From positions 33,456 to 97,455 of IMG/VR virus record IMGVR_UViG_3300010373_000039: 64,000 nucleotides of DNA. One strand, written 5' to 3'. The stretch is from a virus. A program made the translations under genes and the position numbers. Below, piece by piece: positions 25,675 to 62,888 of this stretch. The number at the start of each line of letters is the position of its first letter. Within the stretch, counting starts at the first letter, position 1. A model generated the notes under the pieces. That model saw only the letters and a list, made by a program, of their open reading frames with translations. It had not been told where the DNA came from and ran no database searches.

Positions 25675-26747
25675 TCCACCTCATAGTTTCCGAAAAACCC
25701 CTTTTGTATCCGTGATTGCCGACGGTGCTGGATTTTCATGTACTCCGGATTCAATTCGATGGAGATACACCGCCGCCCTAGTTTGGCGGCGACCATGGCG
25801 GTGGTTCCGGACCCCCCAAATGGATCAAGGACAATGTCCCCGGGTCGTGACGCCATTTTGATACACCGTTCCGGCAGCGACGGTGGGAACACCGCAAAAT
25901 GGGCATCCGAGCAGCTTATAGTTGGAATGTCCCAAACGGTTCGAAGGTTTCGTCCGTTGGGATTGGATGGGGTTTCGTGGTTATGGGCCACCGCGTATTG
26001 ACCATCCTTGCCCTTGGTAATGCGGGTGTATTTATCCCGTTCCAATGTCGTGGCGGCGACCGGCACACGCACCGCGTCCATGTCGAAATAGTATTTGGAT
26101 TTATATTTGGAAAACATGAACACGTGTTCGTGGTCCCGATTGGGACGATTGGGCGTGTTTTCCGGCATGGCGTTACGCTTGTACCAAATGCACTCGGAGC
26201 GAAGGGTCCAATTGTCCTCGCCGAACATCAAAATGGCGGTCATCCATGGAATGCCGACCAATTCCTTTTCATGGTAGCTATCCCCCAAATTCAAGAACAA
26301 TAGTCCATCGGGTTTCAGCACCCGGTATACTTCGGTCATTACCCTCCGAATATTGTGCATGTAGATGTACGCCGTAGGTTCACACCCCAATTCCCCCAGC
26401 CACGCCGAACACGTGTCCTTGAATTTGCAAAACCGTCCCCGGGACACCCCGCGTTGCCGTTGGGCCAACAGATTGGTGCGTCCCTTGCGTGCGCTGGTTT
26501 TTCCGGGCGTTTGTGCCGGGCCGTAGCGGATGATTTCCTCGCCCCATTCGTGCCTGCATGTGGGCGAACCGCCCCATATTTGCGGTTCGGTCCCATAGGA
26601 TCGCAATCCCCAATAGGGCGGCGATGTGACGGCCACTTGCACACATGATTCCGGCAACCCGCGCAATACGTCGATGCAGTGTCCGGTGATGTTGCAAATG
26701 CCACGCTCATCGAAACGGACCAATCGCCGCCGGTTAGTTGTAGGCAT
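25671..26747 (-). CDS. DNA methyltransferase (DpnA/N4-N6 type, beta class)
   Basis: 358 residues. Motif IV is TSPPYWGLRS (residues 41-50) and motif I is VLDPFGGSGTTAM (306-318), appearing in the order IV then I as in beta-class enzymes. A Cys-bearing insert between residues 60 and 120 (CRHEW..., CKFKDTC) probably binds zinc. FLNLGDSY is also typical of this group. It should methylate adenine N6 or cytosine N4 in phage DNA, protecting it from restriction or marking it. It overlaps the polymerase gene by 14 bases. No cognate restriction endonuclease was seen. Confidence 0.85.
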   Translation of the reverse strand: MPTTNRRRLVRFDERGICNITGHCIDVLRGLPESCVQVAVTSPPYWGLRSYGTEPQIWGGSPTCRHEWGEEIIRYGPAQTPGKTSARKGRTNLLAQRQRGVSRGRFCKFKDTCSAWLGELGCEPTAYIYMHNIRRVMTEVYRVLKPDGLLFLNLGDSYHEKELVGIPWMTAILMFGEDNWTLRSECIWYKRNAMPENTPNRPNRDHEHVFMFSKYKSKYYFDMDAVRVPVAATTLERDKYTRITKGKDGQYAVAHNHETPSNPNGRNLRTVWDIPTISCSDAHFAVFPPSLPERCIKMASRPGDIVLDPFGGSGTTAMVAAKLGRRCISIELNPEYMKIQHRRQSRIQKGFFGNYEVE

Positions 26748-29397
26748 AGTGCGCCGCCATATTTTCGTGGTAATCCAATTTGACCCGATCCGAACGGAAC
26801 GTGCCTAATTTACTTTGTTCGTACCAATTGGGACCGTAGGACGCCTCGACCGCCAACGGCACGTTGATGAAATCGAATTCCGGATTGGCCATGGTGTTGG
26901 TGATAACCTCCACACCCTCGTCCAATTTGTTTTTGGGGATGAAGAAGGACAGGTCGTCGTGGATGTTCAACACCGGGGCCAACCACGGACGGTCCGTTTC
27001 GTAGGACATGTGGCATAGTTTCCGCCACGCCCACACCACCAATTCCGACGCCGTGCATTGGATTTTGGAATTGATGACCTGGTTTTTGGACATGGGACCG
27101 TAACGGCGCAACCCGTTCAACGATTCGCTGTAACCTAACCGGTTGTACTCCTTCATCTCCCATTTTTGGAATTTCAGCACCCCGGCGAACGTGTCCCAAA
27201 ATTCATCCCAAATGACCCGCAATACCTTGACCGGCATGTTATCCAGCGCCCGCGCTGCCAATCCGATCGATGCCCCGTAGAACCACGGAAATATAACATC
27301 GGTTTTCAATTCGCCACGGAACGATTTCATCGCCTTGTAGTCTAACGATCCGTGACGGCTGCGAACCACGGTGGGGTACACCCGCGCTATTTTCTCGGCC
27401 CAAACCATGTGAACGTCGTAATCATTGAACAACGAATCACATACTACCTTATCCTTCGACGCCATGCCGATCACGCGGTATTCCAATTGGCCCATGTCGA
27501 AACACGCCATGTAATGGCCGGACGGTGCCACGACCTGTTTGCGAATCCATTTCGATTTCCGCGACGGCCAATTTTGGTTGTTCGGATCGCTACTGCTAAG
27601 GCGTTTCGTGTCGGTGCGGGTATGGTTGAACCGGCAATGAATACGGCCGTCCGAGAACACCAACGGTTCGTCGGCGTCCATGGACATGCGTTCCACGTAT
27701 GTTCCGAACAATTTTTTGTGTCCACGAAGCTCTAGCAGCATTTTAGCCAATGGAACCCGGTTGGCTATCGTAGTTAGTATTTCTTCTTTCGTGGAAAAAC
27801 TTTTGGGGCCGGTTTTTACCTCCTTTAGTCCCAACATCTCCCAAAAAATCTTGATGTTGTTCGGGTGGCTGTCCTTGTATTTTCCGTACCGCGATTCAAA
27901 TTCGCGGATCACCGGCAAATTAGAGATGTCCGATTCCAGCCGTTTGATTTCCGCCGATTCCCGTTTGGCGATTGCCGAATTCTCGTCGGCGTCAACCGGA
28001 ATGCCGGTGGTTTGCGCCAGCGCAATGGCCACCACCCGTTCCACAAATTCACGGTAGGGTTTAATCATCCCCCGTCGTTCAAGAATGGCGATTTGCTTGA
28101 AATGGATTCGAAGGGTTTGTTTGGCGTCCAACGAGTTGTAATCCAACACATCGTCTACGTTGGTTTCCTCTAAACGTGCCCGGTCGATTTCCCCGATTTC
28201 CTCACGACCCAAACCCATCCATCCCTTAATCGTGCGGCCCTTGGACATCGATTTTAGTTTCAAACCAAAATGCAGGATGTTCAAGAAGTTTAACGACATC
28301 CCTCCCTCACGCTCATCGATCAAATAGGCCTCGGCCTGGGTGTCGAACCATTTGCCGGCAAACGCCAACCCCCGGCCATAGGAATAAATCAACCATTCCA
28401 ATTCAAACGGGGCGTTGTGCGCAACCTTGTCGATGTCCGCATAGAGATATTCAATGAATGCATCCTCGATCCGTTTTAGGTCGGATGGGGACCACACGTG
28501 CCCGGGATGTCGCAATGGAAACGCGATGGTTTCCTTGGGGGAACCGATCGCAACCGATAGAATTTTGGCCCCGGCGCTGTAGGGGCGGGACCGGTTGGTT
28601 TCTAGATCGATCGCTGTGGGGTAGCGGTTGCGCCTGATGCGTCGAAGGGCGTCAATGATATCATCGGCCCGCTTTAGGACCCTTACGCCCGCAAATAGCC
28701 GTTTATCGTCGGTCTCGACCGGTGGCTCCGGCAATTTGTCGTACTCACGGAACGCCCGTTTGATATCCCGGCCGAAGAACCGTTCATGCTCGGTGCCGGG
28801 GATTTGGGCGTATTCGTCGGTGTTTAGTTGTCGGAGGATAAATGCGGGGTGGACGGTGGGATAAACCCAGCACCGGTGGCCGGCGATGTCGGTGGGGAAT
28901 CGTCTACCACGACAGCATGTGATCGTTCCTGCCTCTTTGCCTAGACACCATTGCGTGGCCACGTCCCCCACCGCGATAACGATCCGGGGCGTGGCGGCAA
29001 CAATATCCTGTTCCACCGATGGTCGGTAGCATTCAATTTCGTGGTGGTTGGGCCGGTTCGATCCCTTGCGCTTTTTGGGTTGGGTTCCGCAAACGTTGTT
29101 GAACCGGATTTTGAAATCGTCGGGCAGGAACCGCCTAAGCAATTTACCGGATGGACCGACGAACGGTTTGCCGATTTGATCCTCTTGTTTTCCCGGCGCT
29201 TCCCCAAGGACATAAACCTCGCATGGCGTCGGCCCGCTAGGTTTCATGTGCCGGGTGCGGGCGGCGGGATTCATACGTTCCACCCCCTTTAGTCCGATTG
29301 CGTGTAGTCGGCTATCATCGACAATTGACGTGCGGGACGACCGCTGCGCGCGGTGTTCTACCTCAACCCGTGTAAAAAATCCGGTGGTGATCGGCAT
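26734..29397 (-). CDS. DNA polymerase I (family A) with N-terminal uracil-DNA-glycosylase-like domain
   Basis: 887 residues in three parts. Residues about 45-215 resemble family 4 UDG: GEAPGKQEDQIGKPFVG (65-81) and HPAFILR (183-189). Residues 260-430 are a 3'-5' exonuclease: AIDLET (D264, E266), HNAPFEL (327-333) and YNSLDAK (D424). The polymerase follows: motif A FDMGQLEYR (D634), motif B RGELKTDVIFPWFYG (694-708), motif C NIHDDL (811-816), which has D815 in place of the common E. A similar N-terminal UDG-like domain is known in the SPO1 polymerase. It should be the replicative polymerase. No clear ribosome-binding site precedes ATG 29397. Confidence 0.9.
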   Translation of the reverse strand: MPITTGFFTRVEVEHRAQRSSRTSIVDDSRLHAIGLKGVERMNPAARTRHMKPSGPTPCEVYVLGEAPGKQEDQIGKPFVGPSGKLLRRFLPDDFKIRFNNVCGTQPKKRKGSNRPNHHEIECYRPSVEQDIVAATPRIVIAVGDVATQWCLGKEAGTITCCRGRRFPTDIAGHRCWVYPTVHPAFILRQLNTDEYAQIPGTEHERFFGRDIKRAFREYDKLPEPPVETDDKRLFAGVRVLKRADDIIDALRRIRRNRYPTAIDLETNRSRPYSAGAKILSVAIGSPKETIAFPLRHPGHVWSPSDLKRIEDAFIEYLYADIDKVAHNAPFELEWLIYSYGRGLAFAGKWFDTQAEAYLIDEREGGMSLNFLNILHFGLKLKSMSKGRTIKGWMGLGREEIGEIDRARLEETNVDDVLDYNSLDAKQTLRIHFKQIAILERRGMIKPYREFVERVVAIALAQTTGIPVDADENSAIAKRESAEIKRLESDISNLPVIREFESRYGKYKDSHPNNIKIFWEMLGLKEVKTGPKSFSTKEEILTTIANRVPLAKMLLELRGHKKLFGTYVERMSMDADEPLVFSDGRIHCRFNHTRTDTKRLSSSDPNNQNWPSRKSKWIRKQVVAPSGHYMACFDMGQLEYRVIGMASKDKVVCDSLFNDYDVHMVWAEKIARVYPTVVRSRHGSLDYKAMKSFRGELKTDVIFPWFYGASIGLAARALDNMPVKVLRVIWDEFWDTFAGVLKFQKWEMKEYNRLGYSESLNGLRRYGPMSKNQVINSKIQCTASELVVWAWRKLCHMSYETDRPWLAPVLNIHDDLSFFIPKNKLDEGVEVITNTMANPEFDFINVPLAVEASYGPNWYEQSKLGTFRSDRVKLDYHENMAAHYAYN

Positions 29398-33803: not shown

Positions 33804-33848
33804 AGTGGGACTCCTTTAGAATGAAAAATGGTCCGAACAATTCAACCC

Positions 33849-33856
33849 TATTTATA
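33849..33856 (-). promoter_or_regulatory. TATAAATA element upstream of acidic protein gene
   Basis: On the minus strand the sequence reads CGGATATAAATAGGGTTGAA. TATAAATA plus GG and TTG are shared with sites at 46923 and 47854 (minus) and partly 54476 (plus). It lies 46 bases from ATG 33803, inside the intergenic gap, a suitable position for a promoter. Confidence 0.45.
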
Positions 33857-41782: not shown

Positions 41783-42065
41783 GTTTCCACTCCAAATCCT
41801 TAATCGGCTCCTTCGGCTCCTCCGATTGGCGCTGCCGTCCGGATTGATGGATTCCCAGGATTTTGCCATGTTCCCGTTCCACGTATTGAGTACCGACGAT
41901 GGATACATGGCACCGGTATTCCGGCATTTGGTTGTTGATCGTCGATTCGATATTGAACAACATGGTTTTCAAAAACGTTTCGTCGGCGGATTGAAGGTGA
42001 ATGATCCCATCCGCTAACGTTTTTCCCTGTTGTTTAATCGTAATTTGTGCATGGGTCGGGGCCAT
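41775..42065 (-). CDS. Small protein, unknown
   Basis: 96 residues from ATG 42065, overlapping the PLP gene stop in TAATG. N-terminal strands AQITIKQQGKTLADGI and a central FLKTMLFNIESTINN helix suggest an alpha/beta fold. C-terminal half is hydrophilic, with SGRQRQSEEPKEPIKDLEW. No family recognised. Coupling suggests a link with the PLP enzyme. Confidence 0.5.
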   Translation of the reverse strand: MAPTHAQITIKQQGKTLADGIIHLQSADETFLKTMLFNIESTINNQMPEYRCHVSIVGTQYVEREHGKILGIHQSGRQRQSEEPKEPIKDLEWKHD

Positions 42066-42832
42066 TAGCGTTCCTCGGTTTGGCGGATGCCGACAACCCA
42101 CAGGCAATCGCCGGGTTTTAGAAATGGAATGCATTTAGCCTCGTAGTGCGGGTCCAAATGCACCCCGTCATAGTCGCATGTTTCGGCCGGTTTGTGGTAA
42201 TCGGTTCCGGCGTTCTCCAACGTAACCCAATGTTCCCATCCCCATGGGGCATAGGTGCGCAACCGTTTGCGGGGATCGGCCCCCACCACGACACCTAAAA
42301 CCGGGTGGTTATATCCCATCCGTCGCATCCCGTGCAGGATTCCGACTAACGACATGCCCGAACCCACCGGGACCACTAAACGTTTTATGCCCGGTCCGCC
42401 CTCAACAAGAAGGTTATACACCTGCATTTGGGTTTGCCGAACCGCCGCGGCGCATTCCATGCCAAAGGGGATGTGGACCCATCCGGGATGTTGTGCGGCA
42501 TCCGATTCGGCCCGCGACTTGATGACCGTGTTGTACCCAACCCTGTGTTGGATGATTTCGGCCCCCGCGTTTCGCGCCGCCACCACCTCCGGCGACATCT
42601 TCCCGGATGGAATATGGACACGGCACGGGATGCCCAATTTTTTGGCGATGTGCGCCACGATATTGACCTGCGGAGATGCCCGCGATCCGGCGGTAATCAA
42701 GCCCATCGCCCTGGTTTGCGTGGCCAAATGCCAACACGTCCGCGCCTTACCCCCCGATACGCCGGCCACGCGGAAGTGGTCATCCCGCTTCATCCAAATG
42801 TCACCATGTTGTTCAATCGGGGTGAATTTCAT
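42065..42832 (-). CDS. PLP-dependent enzyme (ACC deaminase/tryptophan synthase beta fold)
   Basis: 255 residues. IWMKRDDHFRVAGVSGGKAR (residues 12-31) contains the lysine that binds pyridoxal phosphate (K29, in the SGGK of the fold type II family, as in ACC deaminase). PVGSGMSLVG is the phosphate-binding glycine-rich loop. Compared with the full family it is about 80 residues shorter, probably because an insertion is missing. Phage PLP enzymes are known in pathways that build modified nucleobases, and other nucleobase or methyltransferase genes are nearby (44037-45020), but the substrate is unknown. Confidence 0.7.
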   Translation of the reverse strand: MKFTPIEQHGDIWMKRDDHFRVAGVSGGKARTCWHLATQTRAMGLITAGSRASPQVNIVAHIAKKLGIPCRVHIPSGKMSPEVVAARNAGAEIIQHRVGYNTVIKSRAESDAAQHPGWVHIPFGMECAAAVRQTQMQVYNLLVEGGPGIKRLVVPVGSGMSLVGILHGMRRMGYNHPVLGVVVGADPRKRLRTYAPWGWEHWVTLENAGTDYHKPAETCDYDGVHLDPHYEAKCIPFLKPGDCLWVVGIRQTEER

Positions 42833-45429: not shown

Positions 45430-45465
45430 GACTATTACTATATGATAGTCATGATCAAATGTCAA
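45430..45465 (-). promoter_or_regulatory. Sigma70-type promoter with inverted repeat
   Basis: On the minus strand TTGACA (45460-45465), 17 bases, TATAGT (45437-45442). GACTAT (45430-45435) and ATAGTC (45445-45450) flank the -10 as an inverted repeat. One of a set of related sites. Drives the gene 45053-45322 and probably the operon down to the SNF2 helicase. Confidence 0.7.
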
Positions 45466-46916
45466 TCCTCGTCGGTAAAATCCTCATCCGTGTCATCGGC
45501 ATTTTCGATCATGTTCCAATAGGTATCCTCGGCCATTAACGCGCTGTCGATGGCGAATTGGCCAATGGCCAAATTCTGCGACACCAACACCTTCATGTTT
45601 TTCCGGTTGCCGCGAACCTTGGGTGCCGCAATACGGGTGAACCCCAAATCATATTCGGCCTCGGTTTGATTCAATGACAAAATGATGTCGGCCGTATGCT
45701 CCTTACCACGACCCTCCGATGCCCGTCCGGTGCGGATGATTTTGCCCTGCTTGGTTTCGTTGACCTGGCTAAATCCACACACCATCATGTTCCGCGCCCC
45801 GCCGATGCCGCGAAGGTCCACGGCTATCTTGGTCAATTCATTGCGCTGGTGTTTGGTGTCGTGGTCGAACAAATCCGGGTAATCGACGATCAAAATGTCC
45901 GGGATGAACGAATGCGCCCCCTCCATGTAATCCATGTATGCCTTCAATGTGCGGACGGTTAGTGTCCCGGATGGAAAATCCTTGACCCACAATTTGGGAC
46001 GGTTACGCAACGGTTCCAATTTTTTCAACAACCGGGCGTAGGCATTTTTCCCGTTCAACGTCAACCGCTTCAATTCGCGGGACCGGTGACCAATGATCCG
46101 GCCTAATTCGTCCTTGTCGAACCGGCGGATAATCACATCGGCCTCGTCCAAACTCACCGAGCAAATGGCCTGCACGTATCGTTGCACCACTTCTTCCTGT
46201 GACATTTCACACGAGATGTGCATTACCTTGTAACCATGGCGAATCCCCATCTTGCCGATATGAACCGCGAACCACGATTTGCCCGTTCCGGTGTCGGCCA
46301 ACGTCAAATGATATTTCTTACGTGCCGGTCCTAGTTTGTACCGGTCCAATTCGGGGATGCCTAACGGAAGGAAATCGGTTTCGTCGCGGTTATAGAACGA
46401 CAATGCTTGGGTGGGATCATTTAGCAACAACCCCGGTGACAACGATTCCAGCGACGATCCGCGACCGGCCGACGCCATGATTGCCTCGGCCTCCAGCAGC
46501 GCGGTTTCGTCCCCGGTTTCCGCCTTGCGGCCCAACCCGATGATTTTGGCGGTATTGGCCTTCATCCGTTGGGTGCGGACGAATACCGAAACCTTATCAA
46601 ATAGATATTTGCGGTTTAATCCCTTGGGTCCGTCCAATCCCCGCTTGACCGAATTCAATGAATCCAAAATCCGGTCGTACATTTCCGCCGAATCTTCTTT
46701 GCGGGCCTTAAGCGTATCCACCAAATCCATGGTGTGTTCGCCCGGCGGTTTCTTGTATTTTTCGTGGTAGTCGATCGCCGATTCGGCCAAATCCCGGTAG
46801 TAGGGGTCGAATTGCCGGGCCGGCACCAACGAACGGACAACATTGGCGGTCGGGGAATTGTCAAAGCAAATCAGCGCTAGAATTCCCTCCTGGATTGCGG
46901 TCGTCAATAGTTTCAT
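45462..46916 (-). CDS. Replicative DNA helicase (DnaB-like)
   Basis: 484 residues. N-terminal domain is helical (1-160). The RecA-like core has Walker A ADTGTGKS (207-214), Walker B ILIVDYPDLF and DnaB-type H3/H4 motifs with RASEGRGKEHTAD. The acidic C-terminus ends DDTDEDFTDED, as in many phage DnaB homologues. It should unwind the fork with primase and polymerase in the same genome. The ATG at 46916 lies only seven bases from a TATAAATA element at 46923. A GTTGA before the ATG is a weak ribosome-binding site. Confidence 0.9.
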   Translation of the reverse strand: MKLLTTAIQEGILALICFDNSPTANVVRSLVPARQFDPYYRDLAESAIDYHEKYKKPPGEHTMDLVDTLKARKEDSAEMYDRILDSLNSVKRGLDGPKGLNRKYLFDKVSVFVRTQRMKANTAKIIGLGRKAETGDETALLEAEAIMASAGRGSSLESLSPGLLLNDPTQALSFYNRDETDFLPLGIPELDRYKLGPARKKYHLTLADTGTGKSWFAVHIGKMGIRHGYKVMHISCEMSQEEVVQRYVQAICSVSLDEADVIIRRFDKDELGRIIGHRSRELKRLTLNGKNAYARLLKKLEPLRNRPKLWVKDFPSGTLTVRTLKAYMDYMEGAHSFIPDILIVDYPDLFDHDTKHQRNELTKIAVDLRGIGGARNMMVCGFSQVNETKQGKIIRTGRASEGRGKEHTADIILSLNQTEAEYDLGFTRIAAPKVRGNRKNMKVLVSQNLAIGQFAIDSALMAEDTYWNMIENADDTDEDFTDED

Positions 46917-46922
46917 TCAACC

Positions 46923-46930
46923 TATTTATA
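46923..46930 (-). promoter_or_regulatory. TATAAATA element at DnaB start
   Basis: Minus-strand context GGGGTATAAATAGGTTGAATG. The element ends six bases before the ATG of the helicase, so a transcript starting just downstream would be leaderless. Matches the site at 33849 over TATAAATAGG plus TTGAA. Confidence 0.45.
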
Positions 46931-47001: not shown

Positions 47002-47478
47002 TTACTCGGACGAACGGCCCGGCAATAAAACCAATTTCAACAAACCGGCCGGCCCATAGCCGGGCAAATGCCGGTCCACGACCATGGCCACCTCGGTCAT
47101 GCCATGGGCCACGGTGCGCGGGGTGACCGGGATGCGGCGCTTGCGCAAATCCTTGACGATCATTCCGCACAATAATTTGATGGCCCGGACGGTTTGAACC
47201 CGGGCACGGCCGGGACGCAATTCCTTGCGGATAAATTCCATCATCGTGTTTACGCCGACCATGAACCGTCCCCGGGTCGCGGTATTCAACACCGAAACGG
47301 GAACGAACCGGCCCAACAATTGCGACAACACCTTGGCGACCATCTCGGCATCATCGGACGTGCCAACGGCAACGGTCGGTGCCGCACCGGTCGGGTTTTG
47401 CAAAAATTGGATGCGCGCCGCCGCCTCCCGAAGTTTTTCCGGGGGCAACGTGGATAATTGTTCCAATACGTCAACCAT
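47002..47478 (-). CDS. Unknown protein with helical N-terminus
   Basis: 158 residues, ATG 47478. VLEQLSTLPPEKLREAAARI is an amphipathic helix. The C-terminal part (RVQTVRAIKLLCGMIVKDLRKRRIPVTPR) is helical and basic, ending LLPGRSSE. It precedes a terminator and the DnaB gene. No family recognised. Might bind DNA or the helicase. Confidence 0.5.
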   Translation of the reverse strand: MVDVLEQLSTLPPEKLREAAARIQFLQNPTGAAPTVAVGTSDDAEMVAKVLSQLLGRFVPVSVLNTATRGRFMVGVNTMMEFIRKELRPGRARVQTVRAIKLLCGMIVKDLRKRRIPVTPRTVAHGMTEVAMVVDRHLPGYGPAGLLKLVLLPGRSSE

Positions 47479-47523: not shown

Positions 47524-47766
47524 TTAACCCACAATTTCCTTGCCGTTGTCCCGTGCCCATTTGCGGACCTCGGCCAATCGAAACCGGATACTGTCCCGCT
47601 CGTCACCCGGAACCACGACGTAGGGAAGGCCATGGTTAAACATCCATTCCCGGACCGTCAATTCCGATTTCCCGAACAACTGGACCAAACGTGCGGTGGT
47701 CACCAAACCACGCAAAACGGTGTACTTTCCCCGCCGTTCGGTTTTTTCCATCAAATCCATCGCCAT
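47524..47766 (-). CDS. Helix-turn-helix (excisionase/MerR-type) protein
   Basis: 80 residues from ATG 47766 with GAGGTGAT seven bases upstream. LVTTARLVQLFGKSELTVREWMFNHGLPYVVVPG is the winged-helix pattern of small DNA-binding regulators of the Xis/MerR kind (helix-turn-helix around residues 25-45). It has its own promoter at 47789-47817, and sits between DnaB and a long non-coding region. A role as origin-binding or regulatory protein is possible. Confidence 0.65.
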   Translation of the reverse strand: MAMDLMEKTERRGKYTVLRGLVTTARLVQLFGKSELTVREWMFNHGLPYVVVPGDERDSIRFRLAEVRKWARDNGKEIVG

Positions 47767-47788
47767 ATCACCTCGCAACTAACACTAA

Positions 47789-47817
47789 ACTATAGTAAAC
47801 CCCGGCCAACGTGGCAA
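47789..47817 (-). promoter_or_regulatory. Sigma70-like promoter
   Basis: Minus strand TTGCCA (47812-47817), 17 bases, TATAGT (47789-47794). Same -10 as at 45437 and 52117. It drives the small HTH gene 47524-47766. Confidence 0.6.
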
Positions 47818-47853
47818 GCAGAAAATGCAAGGGGTATAAGTAGGACAACAACC

Positions 47854-47861
47854 TATTTATA
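47854..47861 (-). promoter_or_regulatory. TATAAATA element near the HTH gene
   Basis: Minus-strand context CGGATATAAATAGGTTG, 88 bases upstream of ATG 47766. Upstream on the plus strand GGGGTATAAGTAGG at 47831 is a related plus-oriented sequence. Matches the sites at 33849 and 46923. Confidence 0.4.
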
Positions 47862-48600
47862 TCCGTCCCACGGCTACGGATCGCTGCGGCAACCGTGGGG
47901 GCATGATCCGGTGGCCCCGTAGATCGGAATCGTTAAGACGCAGGGACCTGACCTTACCCTGCGCAATGTCCCGTTTGCATGGCGTCAATACCCGGCCCCA
48001 AGGGTTCACGACAAAACCGCACACGGATCAAACATTGGCTCCTTCGGTTGGAACAACGTGGTATCCCCTAGCGGATGCCTAAGAAGCCGGTAGATCACGA
48101 CTACCTTAAATGACATTCAACCGGTCCTATGAGACCATACCCGGAACCATACCGCGTATCCCTCGGATTAGGATAGATTTCTTCATTGAAGAATTTCTAT
48201 TGCCGAGGTGTAATTCTCTTCACTGATAATTACACCTCGGGGACTCCTAATCCACCACCCCTACCACCCGCGTGTAAACTCTCTTCTCTTATAATAGAAT
48301 AGATGAATGAGAAATGAAAAATACAGCGCTTTATGGAAAACAGCGCTAAAATGCCCACCAATTAGCGCTTCTTGCGATCCAATGCGCGATTCTCCCATCA
48401 GCGCCAATCAACAGGGGACCATTCTCTCACCGAACTCGTCGAACGAAATTTATTATCTTCACGAAAACCACTTGCTTAGCGATGCACCGATGATCGCGAT
48501 GACCTCTTCTGCCGTGGCTGGCCGTGGCTCAGCCGATAGGAAAGAGCCGCCCTCTTCCCAAAAAACAAATGCGTGGTCTGGATTACCCGTCACGGATCGC
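47862..48600. other. Structured non-coding region (candidate origin)
   Basis: No gene of any size is convincing here. Features: TATAAT at 48290-48295 with no matching -35, three AGCGCT hexamers at 48325, 48342 and 48364 next to an AT-rich segment, and the complex hairpin set at 48165-48253. A plus-strand frame at 48307-48756 exists but has no ribosome-binding site and overlaps the better supported minus-strand gene. The region lies near a small HTH protein and the DnaB helicase. It could be a replication origin, a non-coding RNA or both. Confidence 0.5.
48165..48253. repeat. Nested inverted repeats (three-way-junction-like structure)
   Basis: Outer stem GGATTAGGA (48165-48173) / TCCTAATCC (48245-48253). 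Inside lie hairpin 1, TTCTTC (48179-48184) / GAAGAA (48188-48193) with flanking TAGA/TCTA, and hairpin 2, CCGAGGTGTAATT (48203-48215) / AATTACACCTCGG (48228-48240), a perfect 13-base stem. CCTCGG at 48161-48166 could instead pair with CCGAGG at 48203-48208, giving an alternative fold. Confidence 0.6.
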
Positions 48601-48993
48601 TCAACAAGGGTAACCGTCCCTGACGCGGGGCGGTCTCACGGCGTCGGTTATTCGTTGTTTTCCCTCCGGACACCATCCAAAATGATCCGTGAACAAATCG
48701 CGTTCCCAAAGTTTTATTTGAATGTGGATCGGTGGGATTCGATAATCCTTAGATGATACCCGCATAACATCCGGGGATTGGTGAACGGAAATCGGCGGAA
48801 ACACCGCTACCGGGATCACCTGTTCCGGCCGTTCGTAATGAATGTGAAAAAACAACAGTTTCGTTCTTACGGACAAACCGGATGTGTTTTTAAGAAATTT
48901 TGCATCCACGTCCACGGAGAAATAACCGGGGCCGGAATGGATTTCCCGGATAAAGGTTTCTACCATGGATCGTTGGTATTCAACCCACACCAC
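48601..48993 (-). CDS. Unknown protein at end of minus operon
   Basis: 130 residues from GTG 48993, with AAAGGATTAAAT upstream overlapping the previous stop. VWVEYQRSMVETFIREI is helical, and the middle includes LLFFHIHYERPEQ. The C-terminus EGKQRITDAVRPPRV is basic. It is supported mainly by coupling to the upstream gene, since a plus-strand frame also crosses part of it. Confidence 0.45.
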   Translation of the reverse strand: MVWVEYQRSMVETFIREIHSGPGYFSVDVDAKFLKNTSGLSVRTKLLFFHIHYERPEQVIPVAVFPPISVHQSPDVMRVSSKDYRIPPIHIQIKLWERDLFTDHFGWCPEGKQRITDAVRPPRVRDGYPC

Positions 48994-52804: not shown

Positions 52805-52821
52805 GCGTTCCCTTCGGTTTG

Positions 52822-52860
52822 ACTATGACTAAATAATAGTTTCCGGATCGGCATTGTCAA
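52822..52860 (-). promoter_or_regulatory. Sigma70-like promoter with partial repeat
   Basis: Minus strand TTGACA (52855-52860), 16 bases, TATTAT (52833-52838). ACTAT (52822-52826) and ATAGT (52836-52840) overlap the -10. It drives 52556-52804. Confidence 0.55.
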
Positions 52861-52965
52861 TAGAAATCTTTAGAAAAATTGGATTTTTCGTCCTCCGAGA
52901 CGGATATAAGGGAAGGTGGAAAACTCTAGCGTGGTTCGATGATAACAGATTTTTGGATTTTTCCT

Positions 52966-52993
52966 TTGACATTTCCATAAAGGTCGTCATACT
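52966..52993 (+). promoter_or_regulatory. Plus-strand promoter for 53033 gene
   Basis: TTGACA (52966-52971), 16 bases, CATACT (52988-52993). A 17-base alternative gives ATACTT. It lies back-to-back with the minus-strand promoter at 52822-52860, forming a divergent control region. Confidence 0.5.
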
Positions 52994-53032
52994 TCAAGGA
53001 AATGGCCACACACGGCCGAAAGGACAAACCAA

Positions 53033-54273: not shown

Positions 54274-54497
54274 ACCCAAAGATTCTACAACGGATCGCGC
54301 AATCGATTGAATCGGACGCGGCCGACACCACCCGCTACCAAGCGGAATTGGTGGCCAACTACACGCCCGGAACCGTGGAGAATTGGCAGGGGATTTTGCA
54401 ACGGGTGGCGACCCTTGACCGCCAATGGCGGGAGGCGCGGGAACGCCAGGATCGTCGATTCAATCGCCGACGGCGTATAAATAGGGTGGCAAAATGA
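54270..54497 (+). CDS. Small helical protein
   Basis: 75 residues from ATG 54270, coupled to the previous gene. Helical (ILQRIAQSIESDAADTTRYQ, ENWQGILQRVATLDRQW) and basic at the end (RRFNRRRRINRVAK). A TATAAATA element lies inside its last codons. Might bind nucleic acid. Confidence 0.55.
   Translation: MNPKILQRIAQSIESDAADTTRYQAELVANYTPGTVENWQGILQRVATLDRQWREARERQDRRFNRRRRINRVAK
54476..54483 (+). promoter_or_regulatory. TATAAATA element, plus orientation
   Basis: Context GGCGTATAAATAGGGTGGC, inside the end of 54270-54497 and 11 bases before the ATG at 54494. It shares TATAAATAGGG with the minus-strand sites. Because it is coding, it may be coincidental. Confidence 0.3.
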
Positions 54498-62467: not shown

Positions 62468-62596
62468 TTGGGTTCCTATCGTTTTTGGGTTCCTATCGTT
62501 TTTGGTTTAGCACCATTACTAAACCATAGTCAAATGATGACCATGGTATCGGCGAATGTCAACACCAAAATGCATAAAATCTTCGAATTTATTTTT

Positions 62597-62664
62597 GGCG
62601 TTGATGATCGGCGTTGATGGTTGGCGTTGATAGCGCTAGCGCTTGGAAGCGCAGCGCTAGCGCC
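62597..62664. repeat. Three tandem 13-bp repeats and two palindromes
   Basis: GGCGTTGATGATC, GGCGTTGATGGTT and GGCGTTGATAGC begin at 62597, 62610 and 62623 with 13-base spacing. They are followed by AGCGCTAGCGCT (62632-62643) and AGCGCTAGCGCC (62653-62664), 21 bases apart. An AT-rich stretch lies just before (62565-62596). A gene-free gap runs from 62468 to 62909. The arrangement resembles iterons next to an unwinding region. Confidence 0.55.
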
Positions 62665-62888
62665 GCCGGCGCGCCGCCCGACACGCCGATTGAACCACCG
62701 CCCGCCCGGGCAATGGACAATGGCCCGATGCACAATCATGCATGGACCGGCACACCCGAAAAATCTTTTTCATGGCATGGCGATTGCTGGAAGCTTCGGC
62801 GATGAAAAAATTCCAAAATAATTAGAAGATTTTTGTTGCATCGGTCGATGGATTTATGGTAATCAACACACATCCGCAATGGTGCGGA

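Follow-up and report, generated by a model that had tools for sequence, protein, structure and literature searches.

The window analysed here spans 64 kb (33456-97455) of a virus record of 97,455 bases, and it carries the genes of a tailed phage, including GTA-like tail proteins, a family A polymerase, a UvsX-like recombinase and a DnaB-like helicase; the portal, terminase and head genes lie in the left part of the record. The closest DnaB of a named phage is distant (Edwardsiella phage ZHS, 32%), and the closest major capsid protein of a named phage is that of Mardecavirus phages (53%). Positions 26734-29397 on the minus strand encode a family A DNA polymerase joined in one chain to an N-terminal uracil-DNA glycosylase-like domain. 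The helicase gene belongs to a cassette in which a helix-turn-helix (HTH) gene and a gene for a 158-aa protein precede DnaB, and the head of this cassette is a long non-coding region. The order from the region toward DnaB is an operator-like dyad, a promoter-like site, the HTH gene, the 158-aa gene and DnaB. The features of the locus are the following.

45462-46916, minus strand: DnaB-like helicase.
47002-47478, minus strand: 158-aa all-helical protein, kept upstream of DnaB; in a structure comparison its fold matched nothing recognisable.
47524-47766, minus strand: HTH protein (HTH_17/excisionase-like), encoded at the start of the cassette.
47779-48600: whole non-coding region, 822 nt; no other gap between called genes of the 97 kb record is as large.
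47789-47817, minus strand: sigma-70-like promoter of the HTH gene, TTGCCA-17-TATAGT, 10/12 match.
47831-47863: dyad GGTATAAGTAGG-N7-CCTATTTATATCC, candidate operator with TATAAATAGG half-sites on the DnaB side of the region.
47882-48275, plus strand: possible large RNA fold with closing helices CGCTGCGG/CCGCGTG and GTGGGGG/CCCCTAC (pair probability 0.76-0.83).
48161-48166 with 48203-48208, plus strand: alternative pairing CCTCGG/CCGAGG, -29.2 kcal/mol against -42.4 kcal/mol for the junction.
48165-48253: three-way junction of P1, P2 and P3, identified from inverted repeats, fold and shuffles.
48165-48173/48245-48253: P1, 9 bp, a perfect inverted repeat.
48174-48184/48188-48199: P2, 4+6 bp, outer TAGA/TCTA and inner TTCTTC/GAAGAA.
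48179-48184/48188-48193: inner P2 helix, 6 bp, a perfect inverted repeat.
48203-48218/48225-48240: P3, 13+2 bp, the perfect 13 bp being 48203-48215/48228-48240.
48274-48323: least stable 50-nt stretch, candidate unwinding element, rank 1 of all record positions.
48325-48405: RGCGCY cluster, four sites in 81 nt (AGCGCT at 48325, 48342 and 48364; AGCGCC at 48400).

The sequence-only reading of this DNA had described a gene-free stretch of about 740 bases close to DnaB and a DNA-binding regulator. The stretch is real and in fact larger, being three times longer than the second-largest called gap of the record (269 nt), and both neighbours are in place, with DnaB about 1 kb off and the HTH gene (start near 47766) adjacent. 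Whether stop density is taken over 450 nt or over 360 nt, the maximum of the whole record falls within the gap, and for the open reading frames that the gap contains entirely the coding scores are close to zero or negative, with the caveat that a 44-aa frame at 48459-48593 on the minus strand could still be coding. This frame directly follows a 130-aa ORF (48601-48993, minus strand) in a different frame and is open upstream of its own GTG start, and a frameshift or sequencing error is possible there.

The nested perfect inverted repeats of 9, 6 and 13 bases that had suggested a three-way-junction-like fold are all present, and the fold is significant by two measures. The summed pairs of the junction number 28, against at most 22 in 200 shuffles, and its fold energy corresponds to z = -7.4 on the plus strand and -4.8 on the minus strand, with 0/300 dinucleotide shuffles better on either strand. 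The mean pairing probability is about 0.97 for P1, P3 and the inner P2 helix in the full plus-strand fold. The junction is the sole example of its formally defined class in the 64 kb window, and in a crude composition-corrected scan of the record in 110-nt windows it ranks near the top for structure, though another window is extreme. Its absolute energies are nearly equal on the two strands. There is no G-U among its 34 modelled pairs, so that the pairing gives no clue as to which of the strands may be transcribed, if either is; an assignment of strand by fold z-scores was dropped, because z-scores track base composition. The CCTCGG/CCGAGG pairing that the earlier reading had set beside the junction does exist on the plus strand, but it lies about 13 kcal/mol behind the junction and would therefore be at most transient, dominating only in partial plus-strand transcripts. 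In the wider region, the plus-strand fold of 47862-48300 has well-defined helices and z of -4.0 to -4.9, against only about -2 for the whole region on the minus strand. Without the junction the region's z falls to -1.7 (plus) and 0.0 (minus), so the significance of the region's fold is mostly due to the junction, and the remainder is predicted to fold only weakly above chance.

Beside the junction lies the least stable DNA of the record, 4.2 sd from the record mean. The TATAAT previously described as isolated sits inside it at 48290-48295; no -35 partner was found for it on the plus strand, and on the minus strand it forms a weak 9/12 promoter match (48320-48291). The three AGCGCT motifs of the earlier description also hold up and belong to the adjoining RGCGCY cluster. 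AGCGCT occurs 12 times in the window against 2.9 expected, and there are two clusters of this kind in the whole record, the second at 62632 (about 62.6 kb), given which the RGCGCY sites may be operators rather than iterons. This second cluster stands in a part of the window (62468-62856) mostly free of called genes, with TTGGCGTTGAT-like repeats nearby. On the DnaB side, the TATAAATAGG half-site of the dyad also precedes DnaB and two other genes, and allowing up to one mismatch there are 8 matches against 1.3 expected, often as GG-TATAAATAGG-TTG. The copies near gene starts are at 47852-47861, 46921-46930, 33847-33856 (minus strand) and 54476-54485 (plus strand). The half-site is reminiscent of the T4 late -10 motif or of a shared operator. 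No DnaA-box or IHF-like site was found at the region.

Alignment-based DnaB scans recovered relatives, and single-protein scans with DnaB and the polymerase returned nothing. The profile scan gave loci L103-L107, with DnaB 37-46% identical; each of them, and L135 too, has the 158-aa protein upstream of DnaB, and the HTH gene stands before the 158-aa gene in L103, L104, L105 and L106. In L135 the HTH gene is present, but another gene intervenes, and immediately after the HTH gene an uncalled stretch holds a 30-bp direct repeat in about 3.5 copies. An HTH scan gave no loci beyond those already known. Genome G001 (major capsid protein 65%) was set aside as a relative, its DnaB being just 33% identical and a gene lying directly upstream of DnaB. 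Large gaps left by a simple gene caller in L104, L105, L106, L135 and G016 proved to be partly missed genes, and the relatives were therefore compared by stop-rich windows and HTH position. Genome G019 (52.8 kb; locus L105; DnaB 37%) has its two most stop-rich windows in overlap with the stretch immediately upstream of its HTH gene. The region of L105 folds with z of -5.6 (0/100 shuffles, same relative strand as the window's plus strand) and -2.9 on the other strand. The folded, non-coding stretch (L105 3906-4340; G019 41804-42238) has promoter-like sites facing both ways at its HTH side, of which a 9/12 site reads into the fold. L104 (12/12) and L105 (10/12) likewise have a sigma-70-like promoter immediately ahead of the HTH gene. 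A large gap at the HTH gene is absent in L103, L114, L121 and L163 and so is not universal. The non-coding regions of the relatives have a common position; homology beyond position lacks any sequence or covariance-model match. Searches with blastn and nhmmer against phages and the relatives' loci gave no DNA similarity to the region, a hairpin pattern scan of viral contigs gave 0 matches, and a covariance model of the junction run against the relatives recovered only itself and its own P3 arm on the opposite strand. Another relative carries, at L015 4030-4089 and 4 kb upstream of DnaB, a perfect inverted repeat of 25 bp (loop of 10 nt) in front of a short gene.

We tentatively read the region as a phage replication-control region, probably an origin acting as DNA, and place somewhat under half of our confidence in this reading. 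It is preferred because it explains together the size and place of the region, its lowest stability, the repeat cluster and the inverted repeats. The gap, hairpins, low stability, repeat cluster, promoter-like site and conserved cassette are observed, and from them we infer each functional step. The RGCGCY cluster would be bound by a phage initiator, for which the HTH protein and the 158-aa protein are candidates, whereupon the AT-rich stretch at 48274-48323 would open. The inverted repeats at 48165-48253 could then fold once the single strand is exposed, or extrude, and the folded repeats would designate the loading site of the phage DnaB. The same region may space and regulate the promoter of the HTH-158aa-DnaB cassette.

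Several lines of evidence argue for an origin: the head of a cassette that recurs in L103-L106 coincides with the record's largest gap and its highest density of stops; the genome's least stable 50 bp lies beside the RGCGCY cluster and significant inverted repeats; the stop-rich windows of G019 fall at the same place, and L135 has its direct repeats next to the HTH gene; and a sigma-70-like promoter separates the region from the HTH gene, as in L104 and L105. Iteron/AT-rich origins beside phage replication genes are known from the lambda ori type, and the two are alike in having a repeat cluster that adjoins an easily melted AT-rich stretch at replication genes. However, the region here is outside any initiator gene, its repeats have just a 6-bp core, it contains a large three-way junction, and the skew switch is elsewhere. 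Strand composition counts against the origin reading and is its main weakness. Third-position GC skew shows no significant change, and third-position AT skew switches not at the region but at 53.0 kb (permutation p 0.016), independent of gene orientation; a switch in strand composition, a frequent though not universal mark of origins, is thus not seen at the region. The AT switch, near 53000, adjoins an AT-rich divergent gap at 52805-53032, a rival place for an origin. The short and few repeats without a DnaA-box or IHF-like site, the four relatives that lack a large gap, the least stable stretch of G019, which is elsewhere in that genome, the 158-aa protein without a recognisable fold and the recurrence of the RGCGCY cluster at 62.6 kb also weigh against it. 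The original suggestion of a replication origin or a structured RNA is thus partly upheld in that the anatomy fits an origin and the junction is significant, and is weakened by the skew and by the weak folding of the remainder.

The second most likely reading, though rather unlikely, is that the region instead encodes a structured non-coding RNA of its own, some 390-430 nt long. It would most readily be read from the plus strand, pointing away from the DnaB cassette, and would have the junction close to its 3′ end. The plus-strand z-scores and well-defined closing helices are consistent with such an RNA, as are the folding of the equally placed L105 region and its inward-reading promoter-like site, but the fold loses most of its significance when the junction is removed, the difference between strands is largely base composition, and the junction has nearly equal energies on both strands and no G-U pair. 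Moreover, no plus-strand promoter-like site reading into the region and no intrinsic terminator (a G+C-rich hairpin followed by a T run) were found, and the region has no meaningful match in Rfam at gathering or relaxed thresholds (E up to 10), nor does its junction model match the relatives. Inspection by eye for a group I intron revealed no pairable P7 motif. The phi29 packaging RNA is phage-encoded and contains a three-way junction, and the junction here is of roughly similar size, but it lacks an Rfam match and is at DnaB, with the terminase gene some 70 kb from the gap. The region shares with GOLLD and ROOL a large non-coding phage stretch and a branched predicted fold (PMC12286853). Those large phage RNAs are often near tRNA islands (PMC12286853), whereas the window has no tRNA or tmRNA (ARAGORN; Rfam), the region does not match Rfam and most of it has no significant fold. 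It is doubtful that large structured RNAs of a novel phage class are encoded here, with transcription leading away from HTH-158aa-DnaB and the place kept between the distant phages G000 and G019 while the sequence diverged beyond recognition.

A gene-control region between two operons, in which operators, promoter spacing and the end of the upstream transcript would come together, whose hairpins block or process transcripts and which is neither an origin nor a separate RNA, seems improbable. The half-site dyad and sigma-70-like promoter beside the HTH gene, the half-sites before other genes and the second RGCGCY cluster all suit such a function, but the threefold gap length and the record's least stable DNA would be left unexplained, and no terminator-like site was found. 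Very unlikely is a riboswitch-like structured 5′ leader of the HTH-158aa-DnaB transcript on the minus strand, switching between junction and CCTCGG/CCGAGG, which the weak promoter-like site at 48320-48291 just upstream of the junction could serve, but which is disfavoured because the better promoter (10/12), matched by similar ones in L104 and L105, sits just before the HTH gene, downstream of the region, because the whole minus-strand fold reaches a z of just -2, and because on this strand both P3 arms are made before the alternative partner, so that no switch is expected.

Were the region to act as RNA, large phage RNAs would gain a new example, one tied to replication genes. If, as we tentatively favour, it is a replication origin, a group of uncultivated phages that carry the HTH-158aa-DnaB cassette would have an origin named, and for the HTH and 158-aa proteins, neither of which has an assigned part in replication, a role as initiator, loader or regulator would become testable.
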